DNA of 64,000 bases from positions 1,685,018 to 1,749,017 of the forward strand of contig NZ_LT965953.1 in NCBI RefSeq assembly GCF_900240995.1, in the 5' to 3' direction. The notes under the pieces were generated by a model. The model saw only the letters and a program-made list of their open reading frames with translations. It was not told the DNA's origin and ran no database searches. The translations under genes and the position numbers were made by a program. This document shows positions 12,233-16,051 of the stretch, in pieces. Source of the DNA: Bacillus sp. Marseille-P3661 (GTDB lineage: Bacteria > Bacillota > Bacilli > Bacillales > Bacillaceae_J). Position 1 is the first letter of the stretch. Every line of letters starts with the position of its first letter.

Positions 12233-12353
12233 TCTCTGTTTTTATACAAATTAGACTCTATATATAATAGAAAGTAAGAAATATTATAAAACATTATTTA
12301 ATAGACACATGACTACAATTTACTTCACTACGTATTTGAATGGAGGGAACGAA

Positions 12354-13154
12354 ATGATAACTTCAATGAAAGATGCATTTAGTGTAAAAGGGTTAAATGT
12401 CTTAATTACTGGTGGTAACCAAGGTATTGGCTTGGGTATTGCTGATGCCTTTTGTCAATGTGGCGCAAACGTCGCCATTATGGCTAGAAATGCTGAAAAA
12501 GGTGAAAAAGTGGCCACAGAACTCAACGAAAAATATAATACTAAAGTTGGATTCTACCAAGGTGATATTGTAAAAAAAGGTGACCCAGAAAGAGTGGTAG
12601 CCGAAATAATTAATGATTTCGGCAGAATTGATGTTCTTGTAAATAATGCCGGTATTGCAAGATTTTTTGAAGCTATGAATGCAGATGAAAATGATTTTCA
12701 AGATTGGCATGATGTAATAAACGTTGATTTAACCGGACCTTTTATCATGTCTGTTTTAGTTAGTAAACATATGAAAGAACAAGGTTGGGGCAGCATTATT
12801 AACATAACCTCAAATGCCGCGGAAATTGTAAATCTACCTCAAAAAATGGTTTCGTACAGTGCAGCAAAAGCTGGGGCTAATAGAATGACGAAAATGTTAG
12901 CACATGAATGGGCCCCATATAAGATTCGTATGAACGCTATTGCACCAGGATATACAGAAAGTGACCTTACTCCACCTATCGATGGCGATGAGTTACAAAA
13001 TCTTATCAATTACTGGACAGAGCGTACACCAACAGGACGTTGGGGAAAACCAATTGAAATTGGCGCAATGGCTGTATATCTTGCATCCGAAGCTAGTGAA
13101 CAAATAACCGGTGCAGTATTTACTATTGATGGCGGTTATTCCTTAGCAAACTAA
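12354..13154 (+). CDS. Short-chain dehydrogenase/reductase (SDR), LysR-linked
   Basis: The 266-residue classical SDR shows the NAD(P)-binding motif TGGNQGIGLGIA, the structural NNAG (VLVNNAGIARF), and the catalytic Ser..Tyr-x-x-x-Lys (ITSNAAEIVN then VSYSAAKAGANR). The C-terminal IDGGYSLAN ending resembles sorbitol/gluconate-type and KduD-like SDRs of carbohydrate metabolism. The start at 12354 follows GGAGGG with good spacing; a longer frame from 12309 is less likely. It is divergent from a LysR gene and ends at a hairpin, so it is a one-gene unit. Substrate unknown. Confidence 0.85.
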   Translation: MITSMKDAFSVKGLNVLITGGNQGIGLGIADAFCQCGANVAIMARNAEKGEKVATELNEKYNTKVGFYQGDIVKKGDPERVVAEIINDFGRIDVLVNNAGIARFFEAMNADENDFQDWHDVINVDLTGPFIMSVLVSKHMKEQGWGSIINITSNAAEIVNLPQKMVSYSAAKAGANRMTKMLAHEWAPYKIRMNAIAPGYTESDLTPPIDGDELQNLINYWTERTPTGRWGKPIEIGAMAVYLASEASEQITGAVFTIDGGYSLAN

Positions 13155-13201: not shown

Positions 13202-13247
13202 AATGTCTGTGGTTAAAATTATTCCTCAACATCACAGACATTTTCTT
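13202..13247 (+). terminator. Terminator of the SDR gene
   Basis: A stem AATGTCTGTG / CACAGACATT is followed by TTCTTTCC. It lies about 50 bp after the SDR stop and well before the repeat array. Confidence 0.75.
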
Positions 13248-13375
13248 TCCATTTACACCATACTTTCCAAACTGCAGAAAACCCATCGACTATCACTTTA
13301 TTAGAAATACCGTTAAATCCCCATCAGTTTATCTACCACGATTTGCTTTGTTAATACCGTTACTTAAGCCTAAAA

Positions 13376-14998
13376 CTGTCGGAATCAAAGACTGATTCTG
13401 ACTGGAAACTCAAAATTTAGCCTATTCCTGTCAGAATCAAACTCTGATTCTGACTCAAACCCAAACTTAAACCAAATCCTGTCAGAATCTACCTCTGACT
13501 CTGACTCAAATCTCATACTCTAGCTTATTCCTGTCAGAATCCAACCATGATTCTGACTCAAAACCCAAACTTAAACCAAATCCTGTCAGAATCTACCCCT
13601 GACTCTGACTCAAATCTCATACTCTAGCTTATTCCTGTCAGAATCCATACATGATTCTGACTCAAAATCTCATACTCCAGCCTATTCCTGTCAGAATTTA
13701 CCCATAATTCTGACTCAAATCTCAAACTTAAACCAAATCCTGTCAGAATCAACCCCTGATTCTGACTCAAATCTCAAACTTAAACCCAAACCTGTCAGAA
13801 TCAACCTCTGATTCTGACTCAAACCCAAACTTAAACCAAATCCTGTCAGAATTCACCCCTGATTCTGACTCAAAACTGAAACTCTAGCCTATTCCTGTCA
13901 GATTTTACCCATAATTCTGACTCAAATCTCAAACTTAAACCAAATCCTGTCAGAATCAACCCCTGATTCTGACTCAAATCTCAAACTTAAACCCAAACCT
14001 GTCAGAATCAACCTCTGATTCTGACTCAAACCCAAACTTAAACCAAATCCTGTCAGAATCAACCCCTGATTCTGACTCAAATCTCAAACTTAAACCCAAA
14101 CCTGTCAGAATCAACCTCTGATTCTGACTCAAACCCAAACTTAAACCAAATCCTGTCAGAATCAACCCCTGATTCTGACTCAAATCTCAAACTTAAACCC
14201 AAACCTGTCAGAATCAACCTCTGATTCTGACTCAAACCCAAACTTAAACCAAATCCTGTCAGAATCAACCCCTGATTCTGACTCAAATCTCAAACTTAAA
14301 CCAAAACCTGTCAGAATCAACCTCTGATTCTGACTCAAACCCAAACTTAAACCAAATCCTGTCAGAATCAACCCCTGATTCTGACTCAAATCTCAAACTT
14401 AAACCCAAACCTGTCAGAATCAACCTCTGATTCTGACTCAAACCCAAACTTAAACCAAATCCTGTCAGAATTCACCCCTGATTCTGACTCAAAACTGAAA
14501 CTCTAGCCTATTCCTGTCAGAATCCAACCATGATTCTGACTCAAATCTCAAACTTAAACCAAATCCTGTCAGAATCCAACCATGATTCTGACTCAAATCT
14601 CAAACTTAAACCAAATCCTGTCAGAATCCAACCATGATTCTGACTCAAATCTCAAACTTCAGCCCAATTCTGTCAGAATCCATTCCCGATTCTGACTCAA
14701 AACCCAAACTTAAACCAAATCCTGTCAGAATCAACCCCTGATTCTGACTCAAAACCCAAACTTAAACCAAATCCTGTCAGAATCAACCCCTTATTCTGAC
14801 TCAAAACCCAAACTTAAACCAAATCCTGTCAGAATCAACCCCTTATTCTGACTCAAAACCCAAACTTAAACCAAATCCTGTCAGAATCAACCCCTGATTC
14901 TGACTCAAAACTGAAACTCAAGCCTATTCCTGTCAGAATCCAACCATGATTCTGACTCAAAACCCAAACTCAAAATTCAAACTTCAGCCCATTTCTGT
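13376..14998. repeat. Tandem array of about 30 units of 52 bp, each with an inverted repeat
   Basis: About 1.6 kb is filled by 30 clear units plus degenerate units at each end (13376 and 14993). Each unit has GTCAGAATC, a 7-nt loop (usually AACCCCT, AACCTCT or CAACCAT), GATTCTGAC, then about 27 bp beginning TCAAA and ending in CCT. Unit starts (the G of GTCAGA) fall at 13430, 13481, 13533, 13585, 13637, 13690, 13742, 13794, 13845, 13897, 13949, 14001, 14052, 14104, 14155, 14207, 14258, 14310, 14361, 14413, 14464, 14516, 14568, 14620, 14672, 14724, 14776, 14828, 14880 and 14932. Intervals are 52 bp (21 times), 51 (7) and 53 (once). From 13949 to 14464 a two-unit, 103-bp block repeats almost perfectly five times. 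The array lies between the 3' ends of two convergent genes and has no convincing coding content. Function unknown. Confidence 0.95.
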
Positions 14999-15100: not shown

Positions 15101-16051
15101 TTAATGTGCGGCTGCTAATACTTGTTTTTTACTACGAGAATAAAAATCCCAGCCAATTACAAATACTAATAGCGCGCCTAGAATGAACGTTTGATAGAAT
15201 GAATGAACATTTAATAAGCCAAGTAGATTATCAAGTATTCCTAAAATAAACAGACCCATTAATGTTTTCGGAATACTACCTTCTCCCCCTGCTAAACTAG
15301 TACCTCCAATAACAACAGCCGAGATAACGGTTAATGCTGCATCACTTCCAACAAATGGAGACGCTGAATTTAACATGCCCGTTAATAAAATTCCTGCAAG
15401 TGTTGCAGCCACACTGGAAATTACAAATACACTAATTTTATAAAATCTTACTGAAATTCCGGTAAGTCTTGCTACCTGTTCATCTCCACCAACTGCGTAT
15501 ATATTGCGACCATATTTCGTTTTTCGTAAGATATAATCTGCTATTACTGAAAGAACAATTAGCATGACAATCAAATTCGGGATACTTAAGAATGTGCCTG
15601 CACTAATATAATTTAATATTGGATCTTGTGCACTTGCCGGACGTCCATCTGAAACCGATAAAGCAAGACCGTTATAAAAAAACATCGCACACAAGGTAAC
15701 AACAAATGAATTTAATCCTAGGAAAGCTATTAAAAATCCTGTAATTAACCCAATAACTACACCTAATAGAAGTGTTAATATGATGGCTAGGATGGTCCCA
15801 GTATGAGGAATCAATTTAACCATGAAAATACCTGAAAACGCCATTACAGCACCAATTGAAAGGTCAAATTCTTTATTTAATACTACATAAGTCATAGCTA
15901 AAGCCATGATTCCAAAGATACTAAGCTGTGTAACTAAGTAAGTTAAATTTTGTACCTTCAAAAAATAAGGAGAACTTACTGAAGCGAAAATGACCATTCC
16001 TATTAAAATTACTAACACCTTTTGGCTATAAATAGTTTTTAAGATGGACAT
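15101..16051 (-). CDS. Ribose-type sugar ABC transporter permease (second permease)
   Basis: The 316-residue protein is a BPD_transp_2 (RbsC/XylH-type) permease with about ten hydrophobic helices. Family blocks are MALAMTYVVLNKEFDLSIGA, the coupling-region block RNIYAVGGDEQVARLTGISV and VISAVVIGGTSLAGGEGSI. It forms the membrane channel together with the adjacent permease and the double ATPase. It is the last gene of the ABC set and starts 5 bp after the preceding permease stop. Its 3' end faces the hairpin array. Confidence 0.9.
   Translation of the reverse strand: MSILKTIYSQKVLVILIGMVIFASVSSPYFLKVQNLTYLVTQLSIFGIMALAMTYVVLNKEFDLSIGAVMAFSGIFMVKLIPHTGTILAIILTLLLGVVIGLITGFLIAFLGLNSFVVTLCAMFFYNGLALSVSDGRPASAQDPILNYISAGTFLSIPNLIVMLIVLSVIADYILRKTKYGRNIYAVGGDEQVARLTGISVRFYKISVFVISSVAATLAGILLTGMLNSASPFVGSDAALTVISAVVIGGTSLAGGEGSIPKTLMGLFILGILDNLLGLLNVHSFYQTFILGALLVFVIGWDFYSRSKKQVLAAAH

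Follow-up and report, generated by a model that had tools for sequence, protein, structure and literature searches.

Dispersed 52-bp palindrome arrays in Bacillaceae and their pairing with NERD-domain genes

The array in the window and its relatives

In the window (the whole stretch of 64,000 nucleotides analysed here), a tandem array occupies positions 13362 to 14974 (period 52, 31.1 copies, reported by TRF as one array) and lies between the 3' ends of two genes: that at 12309 to 13154 on the plus strand, which we take from its sequence to be of the short-chain dehydrogenase type, and that at 15101 to 16051 on the minus strand, presumably a sugar ABC-type permease gene. A relaxed unit search finds 31 units between 13378 and 14956, at intervals of 52 (22), 51 (7), and 53 (1) bp. 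Twenty-two of the 31 are exactly GTCAGAATC N7 GATTCTGAC, as in the typical unit at 14310 to 14334 (on the minus strand, GTCAGAATCAGAGGTTGATTCTGAC, then AGG), and 28 fit GTCNGAAT N9 ATTCNGAC; such palindromes were absent from 20 shuffles of the window. The first recognisable palindrome (25 bp, 13378 to 13402) is an edge unit, GTCGGAATC...GATTCTGAC, and the last intact one is at 14932 to 14956, followed by part of a spacer and a left arm cut short (CTGTC) that reach to about 14999. In the middle of the array, intervals of 51 and 52 bp alternate, giving a 103-bp higher-order repeat in TRF. In its canonical orientation the unit reads GTCNGAAT N9 ATTCNGAC AGG N9 AAA N11 GA, and by this the window array, of about 31 units, lies on the minus strand.

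The initial annotation had described 30 hairpin units of 52-bp period in a convergent intergenic gap, and both the period and the placement are confirmed, with one unit more. It had also mentioned an ordinary terminator beside the array: a hairpin is indeed visible in the sequence near 13206 to 13245, and a terminator scan, which permits loops of up to 8 only, did not pick it up. No Rfam model matches in the window at the gathering threshold.

The genome to which the window belongs (G000, 5.37 Mb) holds about 490 copies of the palindrome, grouped in some 20 or more arrays at many places (the list of arrays is partial, and their number is therefore a minimum). With up to three mismatches allowed, 536 such palindromes are found, and a relaxed GTCAGAAT search gives 487, each with none in the control. 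Of 397 genomes of the order, 11 contain the two-unit pattern (control 0), and at least 118 array stretches came to light when named genomes were scanned; among those listed are Bacillus-type genera (Neobacillus, Mesobacillus, Robertmurraya, Peribacillus, Aquibacillus, and others) and Ammoniphilus. The numbers of copies are bimodal among genomes, being either tens to hundreds or essentially none. It had been proposed in the initial annotation that related genomes be searched, and that an array seen at no other locus or genome, with copies decaying neutrally in related strains, would be a chance expansion. The search shows that the 52-bp architecture recurs in many Bacillaceae and, taken with the copies in its own genome, this means that the window array is not a one-off. 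In Ammoniphilus resinae, whose genus is usually placed outside the Bacillaceae, GTCCGAAT-type arrays were observed (L066, L100, L107, L122, L129, and L130), possibly as a result of horizontal transfer.

Pairing with NERD-domain genes

When the proteins encoded around the arrays were clustered, one family turned out to lie immediately next to them, that of a NERD-domain protein about 302 aa long; the other recurrent neighbours belong only to common families. In five named loci the array lies directly 3' of the NERD gene, 27–92 bp away in the intact ones. The assignment is to NERD (PF08378; Grynberg and Godzik 2004, as cited in PMC9040797) with E values of 1e-14 to 1e-17, and this is the sole Pfam family above the cut-off.

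The direction of the test was also reversed, in that genomes were searched with the NERD protein and the region 3' of every match was read. Of the 77 NERD genes of this subfamily, 68 have an array with a period of 50–54 bp no more than 400 bp 3' of the stop codon, as against 9 of 224 other ORFs at the same loci and none of 16 distant NERD genes (22–31% identity). Almost every NERD gene with an identity of about 37% or more has a 51–53-bp array 3' of the stop codon. Seventeen of 20 held-out loci were array-positive, and the three exceptions are an array of 104-bp period, a gene with 119 bp of contig left, and a pseudogene without an array. These cis arrays lie at a median of 61 bp after the stop codon and are T-rich on the sense strand of the gene in 57 of 72 cases; arrays 5' of NERD genes are rare. 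At locus L269 (G106:C1:314400-320400), a clade-1 NERD pseudogene with internal TGA and TAG codons has no detectable array on its 3' side, as if gene and array were decaying together.

In a phylum-wide sample, the NERD subfamily was seen only in the order of the window. Across 397 genomes, the presence of at least two GTCNGAAT palindromes co-occurs with a clade-1 NERD gene (9/13 versus 23/384, p 3e-8). Three genomes have palindromes without such a gene (G178, with 112 copies; G373, with 34; and G340, with 18), and candidate reasons are loss of the gene, an assembly gap, or use of the palindromes by another NERD protein; among these NERD-lacking genomes, the stems in G178 and G373 show no clear decay. 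One genome (G354) has the gene and a single copy of the palindrome. It should be mentioned that many NERD genes in draft assemblies are found no more than a few hundred bases from a contig end (L165, L253, L260, L155, and others); the array probably breaks the assembly there, so that arrays are likely to be under-counted. The NERD gene and the 52-bp array are a well-supported pair, and the array in the window is one of the dispersed arrays of a family whose NERD gene lies elsewhere in its genome, a connection that the initial annotation had not foreseen.

The gene in question is G000:C2:1180095-1181000, whose cis array lies 137 bp after the stop codon and has the same palindrome as the window array, GTCAGAAT N9 ATTCTGAC. 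This genome contains three array-bearing NERD genes and three dispersed array families, the first of which includes the window array. The second family is built on CTTCAT/ATGAAG (260 palindromes; control 3), and the third on GGTAACGAATA/TAATCGTGCCC (64 BLAST pieces). An array of the third family at L301 1325-4160 (G000:C3), with about 55 units (2.8 kb), is the longest seen.

The half-sites differ between NERD paralogues (GTCNGAAT, GTCCGAAC/G, CTTCAT, GTCCGATAGA, and others) within a common frame of 25–27 bp; in the consensus sequences of cis arrays the palindrome is clear in about half, and the other half have no significant palindrome. In one genome (G002), the cis array beside the NERD gene reads GTCCGAAC...GTTCGGAC, and genome-wide 109 palindromes fit GTCNGAA N11 TTCNGAC and none is a full GTCNGAAT...ATTCNGAC. 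The class of stem position 8 (T or not T) agrees between dispersed and cis arrays in 12 of 12 readable genomes, a comparison that leaves out G393 and G006 (cis arrays degenerate or mixed) and G076 (unreadable). In other words, the dispersed arrays bear the half-site of their own genome's NERD gene, and in the Bacillaceae each such gene appears to own a private family of 52-bp arrays.

Geometry, spread, and possible roles of the arrays

The period is 52 bp in 1177 of 1320 intervals and 51–53 bp in 1273; the scan pattern required at least one interval of 52 bp, so that arrays of another period may be missed, and the arrays located from the side of the NERD protein were not selected by this interval. 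The loop is 9 nt long in 1401 of 1455 units, within an allowed range of 5–14. Oriented arrays give the unit GTCMGAAT N9 ATTCKGAC AGG N9 AAA N11 GA, the flanks of which are somewhat inflated, because orientation was partly chosen on AGG, AAA, and GA. A/T triplets are most frequent at a distance of 25–26 bp from the dyad and form a smaller peak around 17 bp; over most of the rest of the unit they hardly occur. What stays constant while the letters change is the geometry: an inverted repeat of 25–27 bp, a 52-bp repeat corresponding to five helical turns, and an A/T tract centred at a distance of 26 bp from the dyad.

In 74 arrays, each homogenised internally and different from locus to locus, deviation from the array consensus is 1.2% per site in the stem (3.2% at stem positions 4 and 22), 15.7% in the loop, and 11.6% in the spacer. 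Units with more than three stem mismatches were left out of these counts, a cut-off that cannot be the source of the tenfold difference between stem and spacer. Compensated changes of stem pairs are not in excess within arrays, the paired changes observed being equal to those expected, a pattern that points, without amounting to proof, to two half-sites recognised by a protein and not to an RNA helix. A period of 52 bp kept over unrelated sequences, constrained half-sites, and free spacers support the suggestion, made when the array was first described, that these are helically phased tandem sites for a DNA-clustering protein; the view that the array is more than a transcription stop is also supported. 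A partition site, which had also been proposed, finds no support, since the array family lies at dozens of loci.

The arrays are intergenic and, with neighbour orientation taken from mechanical ORF calls, have convergent neighbours in 32 of 91 cases (background 72/485) and divergent ones in 11 of 91 (background 127/485). At an orthologous locus the position of the array is stable between species, with 24 units against about 8. In the genome of Bacillus litorisediminis, an array has recently been duplicated with 275 bp of unique flank at 97% identity (L087 4083-4767 and L292 2231-2883), and comparison with the orthologous site in G059 hints at the older of the two. Because unique flank was copied with the array, repair-type copying fits better than cut-and-paste, as judged from this one duplication. 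No clean empty array site was found, the region of a candidate in G095 not being collinear. A larger mobile element around the arrays was considered and rejected, in that the flanks of arrays in G000 share only short stretches resembling decayed units, and with the queries tried nothing was found in plasmids and phages (array DNA and NERD protein) or in viral contigs (array DNA).

In 61 members of the NERD subfamily, E42, D74, K89, Q117, and four Cys are conserved, as is D87 in the four members aligned; the proteins keep intact the residues of a PD-(D/E)XK-type centre and the cysteines of a zinc ribbon. The AlphaFold model, built from four sequences, is poor (mean pLDDT 51) and too weak to argue from, except that residues 210–300 resemble a zinc ribbon with helices after it, and no structural match to the model of the NERD fold was found. 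A sequence search of solved structures returned only weak matches of zinc-ribbon type, and defence-system and NCBI family libraries gave only weak partial matches, including the NERD-containing PglW, MkoA, and MADS6.

From these features we infer that a NERD dimer is likely to bind the palindrome as duplex DNA, probably by way of the zinc-ribbon/helical part at the C terminus, with neighbouring dimers sitting on one face of the helix, five turns apart. We are less sure, with the odds about even, that the nuclease centre drives array growth, homogenisation, and spread, in the way proposed for TnpA-REP and its REPs; breaks would be repaired from other array copies, and only units with intact half-sites would be propagated. 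The best explanation in our opinion, with a probability of roughly 0.6, is that the window array belongs, as a dispersed copy, to a NERD-owned repeat family, mechanism included. The wider proposal, in which multiple NERD nucleases in one genome would each act on their own palindrome only and build and spread phased 52-bp satellites, specificity and satellite changing together, could fall either way.

The same protein might instead serve the host by coating the phased arrays, for chromosome organisation or for titration of a potentially harmful nuclease; the spread of arrays would then be incidental recombination and the half-site constraint ordinary selection for binding. Strict phasing by five helical turns with an A-tract halfway, strong half-site constraint even in arrays far from a NERD gene, and a location that is stable between species as unit number changes are all consistent with such a platform. 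However, the distribution is very patchy, with most genomes of the order, and congeners, having no arrays and copy numbers ranging from 0 to hundreds, and housekeeping hardly explains why one genome should have several NERD paralogues, each with an array of its own, so that we consider this role possible but rather doubtful.

An RNA system, in which the cis array would be transcribed with the NERD gene and the repeat RNA bound or cut by the NERD protein, in the manner of type III toxin–antitoxin systems (ToxIN), seems improbable to us. The position of cis arrays shortly past the stop codon and their T-rich sense strand would suit it, and, as RNA, three of the four units tested fold better than shuffled sequences do, but the fourth folds no better. 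Moreover, stem letters within arrays are invariant and not compensated, a constant 52-bp period over unrelated sequences suits turns of DNA and not RNA, and the dispersed intergenic arrays, which are not beside the NERD gene, contain hundreds of constrained units. ToxI repeats are located 5' of the toxin gene, and a type III layout, which would place the array directly 5', was rejected because the arrays of NERD genes are 3' (68/77). The initial suggestion of a template for a repeat RNA could thus hold for the cis array but fits the dispersed arrays poorly. It is very hard to believe that the arrays are a neutral bacterial satellite, grown by slippage and spread by chance, with the proximity to NERD genes a historical accident. 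Homogenisation within arrays, differences between loci, and the varying number of units at one orthologous locus would agree with this, but half-site variation about tenfold below that of spacers in the same arrays already contradicts it, and the association with NERD genes (68/77 versus 9/224) and the agreement of cis and dispersed half-sites also speak against it.

Comparison with known systems

The sopC site of plasmid F consists of 12 tandem 43-bp units with inverted repeats and is bound by SopB. It resembles the NERD arrays in its tandem inverted-repeat units, a dimeric protein reader (predicted for NERD), and a near whole number of helical turns, but there is one such site per replicon, with genes of the ParA/ParB type, whereas a NERD family has dozens of arrays and a nuclease-like gene. 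A CRISPR array was also considered and rejected, since it needs unique spacers and the spacers here are near-identical within an array. In searches of Rfam and of the literature (the latter mostly without subscription papers), neither the motif, nor 52-bp arrays, nor a link between NERD and repeats was found described, and the pairing is new as far as these searches reach.

The STAR elements of Staphylococcus, according to the accessible text of PMC3532100, have a GC-rich 14-bp core, T(G/A/T)TGTTG(G/T)GGCCC(C/A), and a spacer of 40–44 bp, which gives a unit of roughly 54–58 bp. As described there, they too are intergenic tandem arrays with a short conserved motif, spacers that resemble one another at a given locus but not from one locus to another, and an abundance that is patchy between species; the same text calls their mechanism of propagation unknown and names no partner protein. 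Unlike them, the 52-bp unit consensus lacks the 14-bp STAR core as given in that source.

The closest parallel in logic may be the REPtrons, in which TnpA-REP (RAYT) is associated with REP/BIME/REPIN repeats (PMC8266576, PMC2817692, PMC3116915). In both systems a chromosomal gene has cognate palindromes adjoining it and many further copies in intergenic regions, as was found on testing the NERD arrays; gene and repeat sequences change together, and presence of the gene correlates with the number of repeats. However, the REPtron enzyme is a HuH (Y1) transposase, whereas the partner here is a NERD protein of putative PD-(D/E)XK type; the GTAG tag is absent from the 52-bp units, which by consensus column composition have AGG and GA as flanks; and the units are direct head-to-tail 52-bp repeats in an array 3' of the gene. 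Because two defining features fail (the HuH enzyme and the GTAG tag), the NERD arrays are not REPtrons proper, but they resemble the TnpA-REP/REP system in logic with what would be an unrelated enzyme. NERD domains occur widely, for the most part with no known function, and a subfamily now gains a concrete candidate DNA partner. If the reading of the window array as part of a NERD-owned repeat family is true, it would account for puzzling satellite-like arrays in Bacillaceae genomes and for some assembly gaps, would offer a natural set of protein–palindrome pairs for studying how DNA specificity changes, and would mean that a REPtron-like logic has evolved independently in bacteria.
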